IMG/VR virus record: IMGVR_UViG_3300030329_000927
Span: 1 to 30,223 of that record
Length of the DNA: 30,223 nt
From: a virus
Direction: 5' to 3' (one strand)
A program made the translations under genes and the position numbers. The notes below the pieces were generated by a model. It ran no database searches, was not told where the DNA came from, and saw only the letters and a program-made list of their open reading frames with translations. This document shows positions 15,301 through 24,851 of this stretch, piece by piece (the first letter of the stretch is position 1; each line of letters begins with the position of its first letter).

Positions 15301-15522
15301 TTAATAAGGTTTGCCGTGACTTTGTATGTTGTAAAGTGCGTCTATCTGTCGTTTAAATACAGATATTTTTTCTTCATATCTATTAATTAAAATCCTAACT
15401 TCTTCACGAGTTATAAAATTATCTTGAATTTCTTTTTTTGAAAAATATTCAGAACTTTCTAACTCATCAATCCTAAATTCTAAATTGGATATATTTTGTT
15501 CTAAATCTCTGTGGCTACTCAT
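15301..15522 (-). CDS. Small coiled-coil protein
   Basis: 73 residues from the ATG at 15522, chosen because AAGGAAAGG lies about eight bases before it; a GTG three codons earlier is the alternative. Residues 4-65 are charged with heptad-spaced hydrophobics (LEQNISNLEFRIDELE, then VRILINRYEEKISVFKRQIDAL), suggesting two helices of a coiled coil. It overlaps the end of the amidotransferase gene by a few bases. Function unknown. Confidence 0.55.
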   Translation of the reverse strand: MSSHRDLEQNISNLEFRIDELESSEYFSKKEIQDNFITREEVRILINRYEEKISVFKRQIDALYNIQSHGKPY

Positions 15523-16351
15523 AACTAACACCTTTCCTTTCTAATTGTGTAAATATTGGGACAATTTCTTTAATAGTGGGTCTTGCTCCCCACTTATAGG
15601 TTTTTAAAAATGCCATTTCTTTGTTTTGGAATGTATCTACAGTATCTTTTGATACTCTTGCTATGGATTGTGCGTGTAGCAGTTTAGGCTTACTGCTACC
15701 AATGTGAACTCCCCCTGAACGCATTATTTCTCCAGTAGAAGCTATCCATAAAACGTTATCTTTGCAATTATGGGAATACACTAATGGGTTTTTGCTATCT
15801 CTTGCGAGATATACATTTTTAGTTTGTTTAATATCTGCTAAAACTACAGCAAACTTACCTCGTAATTTTTTAAGAGTTTCTGCAATTACTTCAGTACTTA
15901 ATTTGCCGTTATTCATGCTGTCTGCGTCAACCCTAAGGCTGTCTAATATTGCTTGTGAGTCAACTTCTACATCAGTTGTTTTGAACTCTTGATAATTACT
16001 TATGATGCCGTTATGAACCCCAATAATATTTTGATTAATTAAGGGGTGGTTATTTTCATTAACAATAGGGTCACCATGAGTTGCCCATCTAACATGACCA
16101 ATTACTGCTATTGTATCGTTAGTGACTTTTGCCATAACTTCTTGCCAGCTGTCAGTATCGATGGCTTCTTCTGCAGATAGTGGCATTTTTGTGGTAATAA
16201 TTCCATCTGGGTTTACTATGTAAACACCAGTTGCGTGTCTGCCTCTGATTGTGCAGGCTACTGTTAAATTATTAAAATCATCTATTAAATTGTCTAATTC
16301 TTTTTTTGTTCTGTTCTTGTTACCAAAAATCATTCCTGTAATTCCACACAT
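15515..16351 (-). CDS. Stand-alone class II glutamine amidotransferase (GlmS-N-like Ntn hydrolase)
   Basis: 278 residues starting at MCGITG, so Cys2 becomes the catalytic N-terminal nucleophile after Met removal; a longer frame upstream would bury it and lacks a better ribosome site. Family motifs appear in order: RGRHATG (36-42), GHVRWATHG (85-93), NNHP (100-103), GVHNGIISNY (111-120), VEVDS (128-132) and an ARDSKNPLVY strand. These bind glutamine and release ammonia. The SIS domains of GlmS are missing, so ammonia must go to a partner. The amidoligase in the same operon is the obvious candidate. Confidence 0.85.
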   Translation of the reverse strand: MCGITGMIFGNKNRTKKELDNLIDDFNNLTVACTIRGRHATGVYIVNPDGIITTKMPLSAEEAIDTDSWQEVMAKVTNDTIAVIGHVRWATHGDPIVNENNHPLINQNIIGVHNGIISNYQEFKTTDVEVDSQAILDSLRVDADSMNNGKLSTEVIAETLKKLRGKFAVVLADIKQTKNVYLARDSKNPLVYSHNCKDNVLWIASTGEIMRSGGVHIGSSKPKLLHAQSIARVSKDTVDTFQNKEMAFLKTYKWGARPTIKEIVPIFTQLERKGVSYE

Positions 16352-16355
16352 AATC

Positions 16356-16775
16356 TTATTGCCCCCTGTCTTTCTTAGCAAGACGACCCATGATTCGGTG
16401 TACTACTATTTCTTTTTTAGTAAATGATTCAATTAATGATTGTATTAATTTGCCACTACCAAGTCTTTCAAGTCTGTATGAAACAAGCTCTTTTAATTTA
16501 CGAACTACTTGGAATAATTCTTCTTGTTGTTCTGTTGTAAGTTCGTTAATTATCCAATCTTCAACATATTCCATTCCTGATGTGTCGTATCCACCATCTA
16601 CGAGGGATGGGCAACAAATTAATTCAAAATTTATATCCAAGAAAAAATGTTTGCCTATACTTTCCATTTCTCTAAAATTTGTAAAATATATAATCCCATC
16701 TTCTGTTGTAGATGTTTTTACTTTATGTGGGGACTCCACAATGTTTTCTTTATGTCTTTCTACTAATTTACTCAT
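16356..16775 (-). CDS. Hypothetical protein ending in Gly-Gln
   Basis: 139 residues, four bases upstream of the amidotransferase start, with an AAAGGACA ribosome site. The central part (about 28-55) is beta-strand-like (GIIYFTNFREMESIGKHFFLDINFELICCP) and the second half is helical (TTEQQEELFQVVRKLKELVSYRLERLG). The C-terminus is RLAKKDRGQ. No family recognised. Its place between the amidoligase and the GATase suggests it is part of the same cassette, as substrate, carrier or adaptor; this is inference. Confidence 0.6.
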   Translation of the reverse strand: MSKLVERHKENIVESPHKVKTSTTEDGIIYFTNFREMESIGKHFFLDINFELICCPSLVDGGYDTSGMEYVEDWIINELTTEQQEELFQVVRKLKELVSYRLERLGSGKLIQSLIESFTKKEIVVHRIMGRLAKKDRGQ

Positions 16776-16825
16776 AACTTGTCCTTTATCCTTTGGGGGA
16801 GATTGCTCTCCCCCTGATTGTGTGT

Positions 16826-17020
16826 TTATTGCCAGCTGTCTGCTCTATTATCTAAAGCAGTTTCCATTTCTTTGAATGTGGGTTTTCTGCCGTATTTTTC
16901 ATATAAGTCATCTAGCATTTTTTCTACTACTGCGTCTGAATACCCATACTGGATATAGTCGATAACTTCTTGTTCTACTTGAACTTCTGGGGTCTTGTAT
17001 TTCTGCTCTGTATTTGCCAT
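16826..17020 (-). CDS. Small acidic protein ending in Gln
   Basis: 64 residues from the ATG at 17020 (AAGGAG about ten bases upstream; the longer frame to 17041 would begin before that site). The chain is helical and acidic: VEQEVIDYIQYGYSDAVVEKMLDDLYEKYGRKPTFKEMETALDNRADSWQ. It follows its own promoter. No recognised family. The free C-terminal Gln, small size and position next to a GS-fold ligase recall Pup-like ligation substrates, but there is no GG motif before it. Confidence 0.6.
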   Translation of the reverse strand: MANTEQKYKTPEVQVEQEVIDYIQYGYSDAVVEKMLDDLYEKYGRKPTFKEMETALDNRADSWQ

Positions 17021-17043
17021 ACTTTTTATTCTCCTTGTCAAAT

Positions 17044-17088
17044 GTTTATACCTTTAAATATTATATACTAATTTTTGTGCAATGTATA
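17044..17088 (-). promoter_or_regulatory. Minus-strand promoter with operator, before the 64-residue gene
   Basis: Read on the minus strand: -35 TATACA (17083-17088), 17-base spacer, -10 TATAAT (17060-17065), then directly adjoining it the site GTTTATACCTTTAAAT (plus-strand orientation, 17044-17059). The site has near-palindromic GTTTA/TAAAT ends and would cover the transcription start, so it is well placed for repression. It matches two other promoters in the window. Confidence 0.7.
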
Positions 17089-17090
17089 CC

Positions 17091-17609
17091 TTATGATTGC
17101 TTTAATTTTCTTCTGATATTTTTGCCGTTTGAGTCTTTTAGCCCACACATTTTTACTTTGTGTTTTTTTGCTATTGATTTAATTTGACTCATTGATAATT
17201 CTGTAAATCTTGCAAGTAATGTTGCAAATATTCTCATGAAGATTTTGCCGTGAGTTGCGTCACATCTAAATTCTTTGCGTGTTGACCTGCCAATAATATA
17301 GTGGGTTAATTCATGCAATAAAGTTTCTTTATGTTTACCCCAGTATCTTTTAATATAAATTGTATTATTTTTAGGTCGATACCAAGAAGTACCACCAGAC
17401 CCATTTGTAAATTTAACTGGAACTTCAGCTAACTTATTTTCAATATCTGTGTACCACCACCTGTGGGCTTTATTAATAAACTTGATACATTCTTCTTCTG
17501 TTTCGATTTTGTCATTTATGAGGCTTTCAATTTCCCAACCAAATCTATAAACTTTTAGCTTTTGCGTATCTCTTGCTGTTTTGTATTTTTTATAATTCCT
17601 TCTGCGCAT
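17091..17609 (-). CDS. HExxH zinc metallopeptidase-like protein
   Basis: 172 residues. The metal-binding HELTH lies at 99-103 inside TLLHELTHYIIG, and a third ligand candidate is H120 in ATHGKIFMRIF, a spacing like that of SprT-like and phage 'putative metallohydrolase' families. The N-terminus is basic (MRRRNYKKYK). A segment TNGSGGTSWYRPKNNTIYIKR precedes the active helix, as in those families. It lies between the amidoligase and the small Gln-ending gene. It may be a protease acting on the cassette's product, or a DNA-repair-like SprT function; substrate unknown. Confidence 0.7.
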   Translation of the reverse strand: MRRRNYKKYKTARDTQKLKVYRFGWEIESLINDKIETEEECIKFINKAHRWWYTDIENKLAEVPVKFTNGSGGTSWYRPKNNTIYIKRYWGKHKETLLHELTHYIIGRSTRKEFRCDATHGKIFMRIFATLLARFTELSMSQIKSIAKKHKVKMCGLKDSNGKNIRRKLKQS

Positions 17610-17646
17610 TTTCTTTTTTCCTTATTCCTTTTTTTGTGTTTTTTTT

Positions 17647-17681
17647 GGGGGGGGTACAACGTATAGGAATTGCTGTACCCC
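17647..17681. repeat. Homopolymer-flanked hairpin between amidoligase and metallopeptidase genes
   Basis: GGGGTACA at 17651-17658 pairs with TGTACCCC at 17674-17681. The left arm is preceded by a run of eight G and a run of T. On the plus strand the hairpin is followed by TTTTATTT and resembles a terminator; on the coding (minus) strand it is not followed by a T run. Possible roles are mRNA processing, attenuation, or stopping antisense transcription. Confidence 0.4.
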
Positions 17682-17687
17682 TTTTAT

Positions 17688-18620
17688 TTAACTTTGTTGA
17701 TTAGCAAATCTCTTGATATTTGCCTTCATTTGGCTAAATGCGTTTGTGTAAACTTGTGCTTGCTCTGCATCGACGTGCTTTGTGTAGGAGTGTGCTACGT
17801 TTAAAGTTCTGAGAAAGTTTCTCCACTGTCCTGTCTTGTAGTCTGGCTTAGGTGCTACCCATGTGAGTTTGTGCTGTACAAATCTCTCGATGATTGCTTG
17901 AGTTACTAATACCCAACTGATAATTTTCTTTGCGTTTAAAGTACCTTGATGTTGTCTGAACTCGATTGTGCCGTGCTTTGCTAATGATTGTAGATTTACT
18001 GTTGAGTGATATCTGTTATTTCTAACATTGGCTTTATTTGTCATGTCACATAAATCTTGTAATGCTGGGGTATTTGCCCAATGCTTAACTTGATTATATC
18101 TTGGCTTGTTCCATGCTTTTGCATTTTTATTTTGCTCTGGCAAATTGTGGTAAATTTCTGGTCTCATGAACTGTGCGTTAACTCTTCTGGATGGTGCTAA
18201 TGATGAAGAGATAAGTGTCTGGAAACTTGCGTATGTCCCATAAATATGACCGAGTTGCCTAACTGTTAAATCGTTAGCATCGTGATGTACATGTAATCCA
18301 CAATTCACATCAATTTTGCTGTTCATATTCTTAAGGGTTTTTGTGACAATTTCTATTTGTCTGAAACTTTCTGGTGTTGCTGGTAGTGGTGGGGAAATTA
18401 GTTCTCCCCCTGATTGTTGTAGTGAACCATCTGTAGTCATTTTCCAGTAGCTTACTGTGTTCTCATTAGACATTCCCCATGATAAGAACTTACATGCTTG
18501 TTCTGGGAATTCTCTTCTTAATGCTGAGGTAAGGACTGTGGCTAATTCTTGTAGCCCGTAGTAGGTATTAACGAATTCTATCTCTACTCCGAAGGTTCTA
18601 TTTGTGTTTACTATTGTCAT
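17688..18620 (-). CDS. Amidoligase of the GS-like COOH-NH2 ligase fold (Amidoligase_2)
   Basis: 310 residues with an AGGAG ribosome site. Motifs match the Amidoligase_2 family: FGVEIEF (10-16), TDGSL (63-67), GGELISPPL (71-79), CGLHVHHD (107-114) and, near 206-240, YHSTVNLQSLAKHGTIEFRQHQGTLNAKKIISWV. The Glu and His residues form the metal/ATP site known from glutamine synthetase and glutamate-cysteine ligase folds. The family is predicted to join a carboxylate to an amine using ATP and often sits beside class II GATases in phage genomes. The substrate (peptide, protein, cell wall or nucleotide) is not known. First gene of the minus operon. Confidence 0.85.
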   Translation of the reverse strand: MTIVNTNRTFGVEIEFVNTYYGLQELATVLTSALRREFPEQACKFLSWGMSNENTVSYWKMTTDGSLQQSGGELISPPLPATPESFRQIEIVTKTLKNMNSKIDVNCGLHVHHDANDLTVRQLGHIYGTYASFQTLISSSLAPSRRVNAQFMRPEIYHNLPEQNKNAKAWNKPRYNQVKHWANTPALQDLCDMTNKANVRNNRYHSTVNLQSLAKHGTIEFRQHQGTLNAKKIISWVLVTQAIIERFVQHKLTWVAPKPDYKTGQWRNFLRTLNVAHSYTKHVDAEQAQVYTNAFSQMKANIKRFANQQS

Positions 18621-18647
18621 TTGTTAATCTCCTATAATTAACTTAAT

Positions 18648-18693
18648 GTTTATACCTTGAAACTATTATAGAGTGCCTAATATCAAAAGTAAA
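18648..18693 (-). promoter_or_regulatory. Minus-strand promoter with operator, before the amidoligase
   Basis: On the minus strand: -35 TTTACT (18688-18693), exactly 17 bases, -10 TATAAT (18665-18670). One base later comes GTTTATACCTTGAAAC (plus-strand orientation, 18648-18663), overlapping the expected transcription start. This is the best consensus promoter in the window and would drive the whole early operon. Confidence 0.75.
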
Positions 18694-18744: not shown

Positions 18745-18771
18745 TATATACCCCCCTAAAGGGGGTATATA
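18745..18771. terminator. GC-clamped hairpin in the divergent intergenic region
   Basis: TATATACCCCC (18745-18755) pairs with GGGGGTATATA (18761-18771) around a five-base loop. On the minus strand it is followed by an AT-rich stretch and a run of T (within about 18721-18740). It lies upstream of the amidoligase promoter, so it may block antisense readthrough from the plus operon region or serve as an operator between the divergent units. Confidence 0.45.
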
Positions 18772-19701: not shown

Positions 19702-20337
19702 ATGAATAAAGACCGAATCAAAGAATTAAAACGTGTTAAGGCGTCTGAGTTAATACCAAATCCCAAAAACTGGAGAACTCATCCAATAGCACAGAAAAAT
19801 GCATTATCTACTATTTTGGATTCTATTGGATATGCAGATGCAGTATTAGCGAGGGAGACCGATGATGGATTAATGTTAATTGACGGTCACATGCGTGCAG
19901 AATTAACACCAGAAGATGAAATACCAGTTTTAGTATTAGATATTAATGAACAGGAATCTGATTTACTTCTCGCAACTCACGACCCAATATCTGCTATGGC
20001 AGGTAAAGATGATTTAATTTTAAAAAATTTATTATCTGATATAACAGCACAATCTGAGCCGTTAAATGATTTGTTGACAGAACTCGCTGGCAAGCCCCCT
20101 GAAATTCCAGACCCAGATAGTTGGGAAGATCATTGGAAAGGGATGCCCGAATTTGAACAAGATGATTTAAGCCCTTACAGGAGTTTGAATATACATTTTA
20201 GAAATCAAGAGGACATGGATGACTTTGCAAAAATCATGAATCAACAAATTACTGATAAAACTAAAAGTATGTGGCATCCAATTTTAATTAAAAATAATTA
20301 CGATGATGATGTTTATATAGATGAGCCAGAATTATGA
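19702..20337 (+). CDS. ParB/sulfiredoxin-fold nuclease-like protein
   Basis: 211 residues with an AAGGAGAC ribosome site. Residues 11-110 have the ParB N-terminal pattern: VKASELIPNPKNWRTHPIAQ, then GYADAVLARE and the LIDGHMRAEL motif (DGHMR at 61-65). The C-terminal part MPEFEQDDLSPYRSLNIHFRNQEDMDDFAKIMNQQI followed by TKSMWHP is a domain often attached to phage ParB-like proteins that sit next to base-modification genes. Its stop overlaps the glycosyltransferase ATG. It probably guides or assists modification rather than partitioning. Confidence 0.75.
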   Translation: MNKDRIKELKRVKASELIPNPKNWRTHPIAQKNALSTILDSIGYADAVLARETDDGLMLIDGHMRAELTPEDEIPVLVLDINEQESDLLLATHDPISAMAGKDDLILKNLLSDITAQSEPLNDLLTELAGKPPEIPDPDSWEDHWKGMPEFEQDDLSPYRSLNIHFRNQEDMDDFAKIMNQQITDKTKSMWHPILIKNNYDDDVYIDEPEL

Positions 20338-21284
20338 AAATAATTTTATTTTGGTCAACTTTTAACGATTCAAATATTGACGTTAATGAATGGGTAAATT
20401 CAACGGCTAAATTGTCCCCTTTTCATTTTTTAACTTTGAAATCTCACGAAAAATTTGGCAATGAAGTTGAATTGTACACATATCAAAAAATTGATAATAA
20501 AAATATACCCCAAAATATTGTTATAAAAAATGCTGATAACATTTTTCCTGCTAAGTACGCGCATAATGCTTTAATGAGAGGACATAGTATTGCACATATC
20601 GCAGATGCCGTTAGATTAAAAGTTGCGTCTGAAAAAACAGCCGTTGTGTTAGATATGGATGCCGTAGCATTAAAGGAATTTCCACAAGGCGATGATATCG
20701 GCTGGTTTGCGTCAATGCCTGCAAAAAAAACAGGAGGCTTTGCTCCAAAATGGGGAAAAAGCCACCCACCTTTGACAATTCACGACCAGAGTTGGGATGG
20801 AAAACAGTTGGGTGCTTTCCCTATAAAAGTTAATACTGTCACTAAATCACATATAAATAATTTATCAAATAAAATTTTGAAAACGTTAGCGAGCAATCCC
20901 TCTAAAAATTCCAATGCGTGGAATTACGTTATATGGACATTAAAGGACATTATGAAAGTTAATAAAAACTTGACTATATATCAGCCTAATATTTTTTGTC
21001 CTGTTCCCTCATGGCTTTTATCTGGAAAATGTTATTCACTAGAATCGCCATCAAGGCTTGACGGGCAACACAAGTTGTTTGGTTACACGTTACCTGCGAT
21101 TGATACCATTATGAATAGCAGTATTACAGTACAACATTTTTTTGAATCAGCTTTTCAGAAATCAAGTCAAGTTAAAACAGATTTTTGGCTAACTGTAAAA
21201 GATGGAAGTCTTGTCAGTAAAGAGGCTCAATTTATCTTAGGAGAAAATTGGAAACGGGAGTTAAACGATTATGCCAAATCCTAA
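20334..21284 (+). CDS. DXD-type glycosyltransferase (GT32/TcdA-TcdB-like)
   Basis: 316 residues. The nucleotide-sugar site is visible as HIADAVRLKVASEKTAVVLDMDAVALKEF (about 88-116): an Asp-x-x-Arg helix followed by DMD (107-109), the DXD motif that holds the metal and the sugar diphosphate. No membrane segment, so it acts in the cytoplasm. It overlaps both neighbours, the ParB-like gene by four bases and the TAGT gene by fourteen, so it is part of one co-translated unit. It may add a second sugar to a base or modify a phage protein. Confidence 0.75.
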   Translation: MKIILFWSTFNDSNIDVNEWVNSTAKLSPFHFLTLKSHEKFGNEVELYTYQKIDNKNIPQNIVIKNADNIFPAKYAHNALMRGHSIAHIADAVRLKVASEKTAVVLDMDAVALKEFPQGDDIGWFASMPAKKTGGFAPKWGKSHPPLTIHDQSWDGKQLGAFPIKVNTVTKSHINNLSNKILKTLASNPSKNSNAWNYVIWTLKDIMKVNKNLTIYQPNIFCPVPSWLLSGKCYSLESPSRLDGQHKLFGYTLPAIDTIMNSSITVQHFFESAFQKSSQVKTDFWLTVKDGSLVSKEAQFILGENWKRELNDYAKS

Positions 21285-22158
21285 ATATCCTGTATATATT
21301 ATTTCTAAAAATCGACACGAAGTTCGGTTAACAAGTGATGCGCTGAATAAAATAAAAGTACCGCATTATTTAGTTGTTGAAGAACAAGAATATAATCTAT
21401 ATGACAAAGCCTTAAAGGAAAATAATATAGAATACGCAACTCTTTTGATTCTTGATAAAAAATATCAAGATGAGTATGACCCTTGTACTGATGAGGAATG
21501 GAAATCAAATGGTCCCGGAGCGGCAAGGAATTTTTGTTGGGATCACTCTATTAAATTAGGAGCAGAATCTCATTGGGTCATGGATGACAATATTAGGGCG
21601 TTTGGTAGGGTTAATAAAAATAAATATGCAAGAGTACAATCGGGAACTATTTTTAGAGCGGCAGAAGATTTTGTTGATAGATATCAGAATGTTGCGATAT
21701 CTGGTCTGCAATATTTTATGTTTATGGTCTTTAAAGAAAAAAGACCAGCATTTATAAAAAATAGTCGGATATATTCCTGTTTATTGATTCGCAATGATAT
21801 TCCTTATAGATGGCGAGGTAGATATAACGAGGATACCGACTTATCATTACGGGCGTTAAAAGATGGATGGTGTACGATACAATTTAATGCTTTTATTCAA
21901 GAAAAGGCTACCACTCAAACAATCAAAGGCGGCAATACAGAGGCGTTTTATGCTTTTGAAGGCACAATGAATAAATCAAAGATGTTGGCTGAGATGCATC
22001 CTGACGTTGCTCGAGTGCAATGGCGTTATGGTAGATGGCATCATTTTGTAGATTACACTCCATTTAAAAAAACCAAATTGATTTTAAAAGATGGAATTGA
22101 CATTGATAAATTAAATAATAAATATAAATTGAAAAAAGTAAAAAAAGCCAATGCCTAA
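21271..22158 (+). CDS. TET-associated type glycosyltransferase (TAGT-like)
   Basis: 295 residues. Motifs in order: YPVYIISKNR (6-15), HYLVVEEQEY (32-41), GPGAARNFCWDHSIKLG (81-97), HWVMDDNIRAFGR (101-113), SGTIFRAAEDFVDRY (125-138), IYSCLLIRNDIPYRWRGRYNEDTDLSLRALKDGW (167-200) and GGNTEAFY. This is the fold and motif set of the TAGT family, glycosyltransferases predicted to decorate hydroxymethylated bases in phage DNA. MDDN is the DXD-like metal site. It overlaps TerS by eight bases, tying modification to packaging. Confidence 0.82.
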   Translation: MPNPKYPVYIISKNRHEVRLTSDALNKIKVPHYLVVEEQEYNLYDKALKENNIEYATLLILDKKYQDEYDPCTDEEWKSNGPGAARNFCWDHSIKLGAESHWVMDDNIRAFGRVNKNKYARVQSGTIFRAAEDFVDRYQNVAISGLQYFMFMVFKEKRPAFIKNSRIYSCLLIRNDIPYRWRGRYNEDTDLSLRALKDGWCTIQFNAFIQEKATTQTIKGGNTEAFYAFEGTMNKSKMLAEMHPDVARVQWRYGRWHHFVDYTPFKKTKLILKDGIDIDKLNNKYKLKKVKKANA

Positions 22159-24479: not shown

Positions 24480-24524
24480 GTTTATACCTGTAAACAGTAT
24501 ATACCCCTTGAAACAATAAGTAAA
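24480..24524 (-). promoter_or_regulatory. Minus-strand promoter with operator, before the lone gene
   Basis: On the minus strand: -35 TTTACT (24519-24524), 17-base spacer, -10 TATACT (24496-24501). Directly adjoining is GTTTATACCTGTAAAC (24480-24495), whose ends GTTTA/TAAAC are perfect inverted repeats. The -35, the spacing and the site match the amidoligase promoter. Confidence 0.75.
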
Positions 24525-24557: not shown

Positions 24558-24851
24558 GCTTGCGTTGGTGTTTATACCTAAACAGGCGACTGCTTTAACA
24601 ACTGAATAAGAGGACTATAACGCATCTTAATCAATGTAGAATTTCGTTACTTTTGGTTTTTATTTATTAATTTTTTAGTTACTAGCTTTATTCTGTAGTG
24701 GATATCAGTTTCATGGATTAGCTCATAGGACATGCGTTTATTCAGATAACCTCCTTTAAAATTTTAGTTATTTGTTCCTAATACAGTCCTCTTTATGAAT
24801 ATACGTTGACTTGTCCGTATCTTCTCCTCATTGCATTGTCACAACGCAAGC
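24558..24851. ncRNA. Non-coding region with nested complementary segments, possible structured RNA
   Basis: Between 24455 and 24941 there is no convincing gene. Three nested perfect complements are present: GCTTGCGTTG (24558-24567) with CAACGCAAGC (24842-24851); AAGAGGACT (24608-24616) with AGTCCTCTT (24785-24793); and AACGCAT (24619-24625) with ATGCGTT (24732-24738). CTGAATAA (24602-24609) can also pair with TTATTCAG (24738-24745). This pairing crosses, and shares two bases with, the AAGAGGACT helix, suggesting a pseudoknot or a switch. It could be a 5' leader of the head operon, a small RNA, or a packaging or replication site. No known RNA class is recognised. Confidence 0.4.
24570..24583. 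promoter_or_regulatory. Fourth operator-like site
   Basis: GTTTATACCTAAAC is a shortened form of the operator: inverted GTTTA/TAAAC arms with a four-base centre. It lies 75 bases beyond the lone-gene promoter. No promoter in the same geometry adjoins it; it could be an auxiliary binding site allowing looping or cooperative binding. Confidence 0.5.

Follow-up and report, generated by a model that had tools for sequence, protein, structure and literature searches.

What is the functional unit within the block of five genes at positions 15,515 to 18,620 of the virus record IMGVR_UViG_3300030329_000927 (IMG/VR), and what reaction might it catalyze? The window analyzed here is that whole record of 30,223 bases, which is classed as linear and contains genes for tape measure, major tail, terminase, portal and major capsid proteins and hence belongs to a tailed phage. 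An initial annotation had described the block as a cassette in which an amidoligase, a glutamine amidotransferase (GATase) and a putative metalloprotein act in one pathway. All five open reading frames (ORFs) lie where that annotation had placed them and are co-directional, on the minus strand. From 5′ to 3′ they are as follows, with lengths in amino acids (aa):

17688..18620, minus strand: amidoligase (Amidoligase_2, a predicted ATP-dependent carboxylate-amine ligase of the glutamine synthetase (GS) fold), 310 aa; first core gene
17091..17609, minus strand: HELTH protein, a possible SprT-like protein or minimal zincin, 172 aa; outside the conserved unit
16826..17041, minus strand: small ORF with no assigned family, 71 aa as listed
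16356..16775, minus strand: small protein with no assigned function, 139 aa
15515..16351, minus strand: stand-alone class II (Ntn, N-terminal nucleophile) GATase, GlmS-N-like, 278 aa; second core gene

Comparison with relatives revealed that the conserved unit consists of two of these genes, those for the amidoligase and the GATase. In locus L164, with a terminase 77% identical to that of the window, the two genes are 86 base pairs (bp) apart and the gap is empty, while in L016 and L017, whose amidoligases are the closest to that of the window in the amidoligase tree, the gap is filled by other, unrelated small genes. Thus, the core is a two-gene one, with a gap whose genes are gained and lost. 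Because the HELTH, 71-aa and 139-aa proteins are all missing at the same spot in these three nearest pair-carrying relatives, they are lineage-specific inserts or hitch-hikers between the pair. Nor did a search with PF10263 (SprT-like) find any match in the records of 18 relatives, although the same search was positive in 7 of 14 control genomes. The proposed five-gene cassette was accordingly rejected.

The recurrence of amidoligase and class II GATase together, which had also been claimed, was borne out. Scanning of IMG/VR viral contigs with the GATase alignment yielded 76 new loci, and an amidoligase, sought in the fetched flank, was present in 63 of them. After the GATases were collapsed at 70% identity, an amidoligase was found in 36 of 43 loci, and in 28 it was directly upstream of the GATase gene, on the same strand and within 600 bp; one further record has amidoligases elsewhere. 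In the reverse direction, 24 of 80 amidoligase-selected loci had a GATase, which was always downstream and on the same strand. For the control, the terminase (TerL) of the window was used in place of DUF932, as a DUF932-selected scan gave 2 loci only. Among the 54 TerL-selected loci, many of which are from the window's own phage lineage, a single one had a GATase, and that locus (L164) was also the sole one with an amidoligase. The adjacency is therefore non-random. The distances among the ligases and among their GATases also co-vary (mirror-tree r = 0.80 for 35 pairs; none of 2000 permutations gave so high a value). In 50,697 named phage records, the amidoligase had 70 matches and the GATase 339, and the two genes adjoin in Arthrobacter phages; no near DNA match to the window was found among named phages.

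The GATase matches PF13522 (GATase_6) with an E value of 1e-14 (55 bits against a cutoff of 27). Its real start is the ATG at 16351 (MCGITG), with the stop side at 15515, while the listed TTG start is further upstream. With this start, a Cys follows the initiator Met, and the Arg, Asn-Gly and Asp residues for glutamine binding and the oxyanion are present (C2, R88, N114-G115 and D131), as in class II enzymes; C2, H86, R88, N114, G115 and D131 were invariant in all 47 GATase homologues. The closest solved structures are the glutaminase domains of GlmS/GFAT. The description of the protein as GlmS-N-like without SIS domains was confirmed, given that the ORF stops before any SIS domain. A GlmS enzyme proper was considered and rejected: the ORF is 278 aa long and gave no match to SIS, and its NCBIfam scores (79.5 bits for glmS and 28.8 for EgtC) are all far under the equivalog cutoffs (418 for glmS).

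The amidoligase matches Pfam PF12224 (Amidoligase_2) over positions 2–244 of the 245-position profile (E value of 9.8e-30; 104.6 bits against a cutoff of 22) and contains the motifs FGVEIEF, TTDGS, GGELISPPL, CGLHVHHD and TIEFRQH. Among 86 homologues, E13, E15, E73, H110, H112, N209, E220 and R222 are near-invariant, so the earlier statement that the motifs are intact holds for the metal- and ATP-binding residues; the Cys of CGLHVH, in contrast, is variable. A catalytic role for this Cys was rejected, as it is Thr in L016, L017 and L029 and mixed among the GATase-linked sequences. An AlphaFold2 (AF2) model built from 58 sequences (pLDDT of 83.6 and pTM of 0.86) predicts the glutamine-synthetase/YbdK/PafA-Dop fold of the GS/GCS superfamily. 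Its matches in that superfamily had VIA Z scores ranging from 11 to 13.5, including 13.5 for the YbdK-type structure 1tt4, 12.7 for glutamate-cysteine ligase (2gwc), 12.4 for Dop (7oy3), 12.0 for PafA (4bjr) and about 12 for GS and GmaS. This is in agreement with the GS fold assigned initially, and the loss of ATP and metal residues that had been named beforehand as a refuting condition was not observed. Among solved structures no convincing sequence-level relative was found. A tie of the pair to known anti-phage defence was considered and dropped, since neither the ligase nor the GATase had a match in PADLOC.

In several lineages, the amidoligase carries extensions that, by eye, resemble helix-turn-helix (HTH) segments, at the N-terminus in L012 (7809-8783), L013 (7755-8768), L015 (5794-6747) and L225 (9800-10744) and at the C-terminus in L006 and L009. 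The amidoligase of the window has no such extension.

The HELTH protein contains, in addition to its HELTH motif, a later HG..F stretch. Its match to PF10263 is under the cutoff (E value of 6e-4; 20.1 bits against 25.6), and it has weak matches to the metallo-protease family phrog_87 (E value of 4e-5) and capP (E value of 0.001). Tblastn and pattern scans found no convincing relative, and a single-sequence AF2 model was too poor for use (pLDDT of 45). For the 71-aa ORF, the likelier start is the ATG (MANTEQ) near 17020, which gives about 64 aa; no Pfam or PHROG family was found above cutoff, and phmmer found no relative among the fetched loci. The 139-aa protein matches phrog_13427 (E value of 1.7e-11) and phrog_38109, both without assigned function, and its N-terminal half resembles a hypothetical protein of Prochlorococcus phage P-SSM4.

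A different small family, with a HEFRH motif, is encoded about 300–500 bp upstream of the amidoligase in L090, L094, L101, L105, L119, L120, L123, L124 and L149. It is a probable zincin with the sequence E.DAR.WSLSLY and has no Pfam match above cutoff. In a single comparison, a 41-column similarity around HExxH was found between this family and the HELTH protein (probability of 75%, E value of 2.6e-5), with G.Y.P..N.I...TLLHE..H as the stretch in common. The nine loci have many genes in common and were counted as one event.

Further analyses identified two promoter-like sites and a short repeated sequence, all on the minus strand:

18645..18693, minus strand: promoter-like site 5′ of the amidoligase gene, TTTACT-17-TATAAT followed by AGGTATAAACATT
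17041..17088, minus strand: promoter-like site 5′ of the genes for the 71-aa protein, the 139-aa protein and the GATase, TATACA-17-TATAAT followed by AGGTATAAACATT
17044-17053, 18648-18657, 24480-24489 and 24570-24579, minus strand: copies of AGGTATAAAC, counted as exact matches

An exact 13-nucleotide element with TATAAT just 5′ of it thus precedes the amidoligase gene and again the 71-aa gene, and therefore at least two transcription starts are probable for the five-gene block. The block had been called an operon; the genes are indeed co-directional, and the term is qualified by the second promoter-like site before the 71-aa gene. The sequence AGGTATAAAC occurs exactly four times in the window, where 0.13 copies are expected, always on the minus strand and 5′ of minus-strand genes, and at least two of the four copies are directly 3′ of a TATAAT; it looks like a common phage promoter, start region or operator. 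Between the divergent amidoligase and RusA-like genes, at 18745-18771, a strong hairpin, TATATACCCCC-TTT-AGGGGGGTATATA, precedes a T-rich run. No Rfam element was found in the window. On the 3′ side of the GATase gene are a 76-aa gene that overlaps the GATase stop, an 81-aa gene, a gene for a DUF932 protein and, further on, one for an AAA/primase-type protein.

In related phages the GATase is not the only partner of the amidoligase. Among 47 non-redundant amidoligase-selected loci, the downstream partner was GGCT (PF06094) only in 24, GATase only in 8, both in 2 and neither in 13, an avoidance with a nominal Fisher p of 0.028 behind which there are few independent switches; a tree-controlled test of the alternation had 3 supported independent pairs, too few to reach significance. 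These counts are suggestive of a rule that an amidoligase of this family is mostly accompanied downstream by a single enzyme acting on gamma-glutamyl amides, which is either GGCT or a GATase, and rarely by both. In the amidoligase tree, the window is in a five-member GATase-linked group that lies near GGCT-linked members and is separate from the large GATase group. GGCT and ATP-grasp companions are present in other amidoligase loci. In the window record, which may be a fragment, neither GGCT nor RimK-type ATP-grasp (PF08443) had a match, and COOH-NH2_lig was not found in a search that had no positive control.

In addition, 27 of 85 viral loci (e.g., L019 1381-1620, L029 15134-15385 and L229 10701-10982, among others) have, downstream of the amidoligase gene, a gene for an unannotated protein family of about 80 aa, which in some cases overlaps the amidoligase stop. 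Contigs of the bacteria Hymenobacter, Pontibacter, Capnocytophaga and Brasilonema, in which it probably belongs to prophages, encode this family as well; no match was found in the window. A role for this protein as a peptide-tag carrier was rejected, as its C-terminus is variable.

How the pair works is suggested by analogy with MurT-GatD, in which MurT has a Mur-ligase fold and GatD is a class I GATase. Our preferred, though tentative, reading, to which we assign a probability of about 45%, is that the amidoligase and GATase are the two subunits of a split, glutamine-dependent amidation enzyme; the reaction, the formation of a complex and the direction in which the pair would work are all inferred. 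The GATase would hydrolyze glutamine to ammonia, and the GS-fold amidoligase would activate a carboxylate with ATP and then form an amide from the GATase-derived ammonia. In GGCT lineages, GGCT would take the place of the GATase and release what is bound to a gamma-glutamyl carrier, an amine or an amino acid. The general rule may then be a ligase together with an enzyme releasing the amine that the ligase consumes. This amine-supply reading is the simplest one in view of the chemical ability common to GATase and GGCT, both of which break a gamma-glutamyl-N bond so that its amine part is set free. According to a published guess, the target of the pair is host peptidoglycan or another surface peptide, and modification of peptidoglycan to exclude other phages has been suggested repeatedly as a prediction (PMC5498523, PMC10580990, PMC11945000).

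Several points weigh against glutamine-dependent amidation. A GATase is near only 10 of the 47 related amidoligases, and therefore glutamine-derived ammonia is dispensable for these amidoligases in general. Glutamine synthetase works with free ammonia, and we know of no GS-fold enzyme that takes ammonia from a partner GATase. The mirror-tree correlation comes partly from shared phage ancestry. Finally, GAT-fold proteins beside GS-fold ligases have been reported as hydrolases of the ligase product (AtdA2/NpaA2; PMC11335346).

The last point leads to a possible, though somewhat doubtful, alternative, in which the amidoligase puts a gamma-glutamyl (or similar) group on an amine. The GATase would then act as a gamma-glutamyl-amide hydrolase to trim this group or take it off, a role that GGCT would have in sister lineages. 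This alternative is consistent with the ability of both enzymes to cleave gamma-glutamyl-N bonds, with their tendency to substitute for each other downstream and with the position of the window's small GATase-linked group among mainly GGCT-linked sequences, as well as with reports that AtdA2 hydrolyzes gamma-glutamylanilide, and the proposal that NpaA2 hydrolyzes gamma-glutamylated naphthylamine, from a GS-like ligase (PMC11335346) and that EgtC, a named glutamine amidotransferase, releases glutamate (PMC4621440). The supported independent partner switches are, however, too few for a tree-controlled test, several phages have both enzymes (e.g., gp97-99 of Arthrobacter phage Salgado), and the GATase scores much nearer to GlmS than to EgtC. 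While the GATase/GGCT pattern fits both readings, this kinship to GlmS favours amine supply over product removal. A more specific version, which we consider unlikely, is that GATase and GGCT are interchangeable on the same gamma-glutamyl-N bond, so that a host molecule would be reversibly tagged with gamma-glutamyl (or an amine carrier would be formed), with the approximately 80-aa partner taking part in some lineages. A single pathway for the whole block, with the HELTH metalloprotein processing or releasing the product as the initial annotation had it, is very improbable in our judgement: the genes are co-directional and tightly packed, and the HEFRH protein upstream of the amidoligase has its HExxH stretch in common with the HELTH protein, but the nearest pair-carrying relatives have neither the HELTH protein nor the two small ones, SprT-like proteins were not found in the 18 relatives' records, the HEFRH proteins come from a single group of related loci and differ in the apparent third ligand, and the block is divided by the second promoter-like site.

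It is also improbable that the substrate of the pair is phage DNA or a nucleic acid precursor instead of a peptide. The same genome encodes a TET-associated glycosyltransferase (TAGT; PF20691) at 21271-22158 (E value of 1.2e-42), ParB-like genes are common near amidoligases (31 of 85 loci), and the ParB-to-TerS slot of relatives contains other DNA-modification genes:

Window 19702-22158: TAGT (PF20691)
L016 7421-9136: TAGT
L166 5158-9584: queuosine/7-deazaguanine-type genes, identified by eye
L164 6478-9290 and L017 7364-8605: cytosine methyltransferase-like genes, identified by eye

L164 and L017 keep the pair, but their slot has this DNA methyltransferase-like gene and no TAGT was detected in it; therefore, the pair does not track the DNA-modification genes. 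Moreover, the GGCT and ATP-grasp companions elsewhere point to peptide or amino-acid chemistry. It should be noted that a 316-aa protein encoded at 20334-21284 of the window adjoins TAGT; it had no family match and contains a DMDA (DxD-like) stretch, and is perhaps a second glycosyltransferase.

For about 15 years, phage modules with an amidoligase have been described as predicted modifiers of the cell wall or of peptides, and the module is reportedly due to Iyer et al. 2009 and Hardies et al. 2013. In later papers, the pairing of amidoligase and class II GATase in phages is already described, within a predicted "peptidoglycan-modification" module (PMC5498523, PMC3890496, PMC11945000). As in the window, Amidoligase_2 and class II GATase are close together in early or accessory regions of that module; the window has only these two enzymes, with GGCT, ATP-grasp and COOH-NH2_lig not found in its record. 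In the Arthrobacter phages Ottawa (gp65-66) and Salgado (gp97-99), an amidoligase is followed directly by a stand-alone GATase in the same order as in the window, but their amidoligases, which are about 32–34% identical to that of the window, have an extra N-terminal HTH-like segment, and Salgado also has GGCT. The OM43 phages MEP401/402, of another phage lineage, have both PF12224 and PF13522, reported as auxiliary metabolic genes (PMC10580990). MurT-GatD, which amidates peptidoglycan Glu in Staphylococcus aureus, likewise has its ligase and glutaminase as separate, co-transcribed genes (PMC3267633); the likeness is one of working, as the enzymes are not homologous. In pairs of the AtdA1/A2 type (PMC11335346) and in GmaS/MgsA (PMC6237917), a GS-fold glutamyl ligase is encoded with a GAT-like partner as in the window, but these are catabolic bacterial operons and the partner acts on the gamma-glutamyl amide. 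The GATase/GGCT pattern poses a concrete and inexpensive biochemical question, whether the partner supplies an amine or removes the product. To our knowledge, four findings are new: the extent of the association, measured against a control; the two-gene core, as seen in L164; the GATase/GGCT near-alternation; and the approximately 80-aa companion. Judged from the sequences, the pair of the window appears to be a reduced version of a known pairing, in a class of phage modules whose function has so far been predicted in the literature, and together with L164 it represents a minimal two-enzyme version that is simpler to purify and assay than the five- to seven-gene versions.

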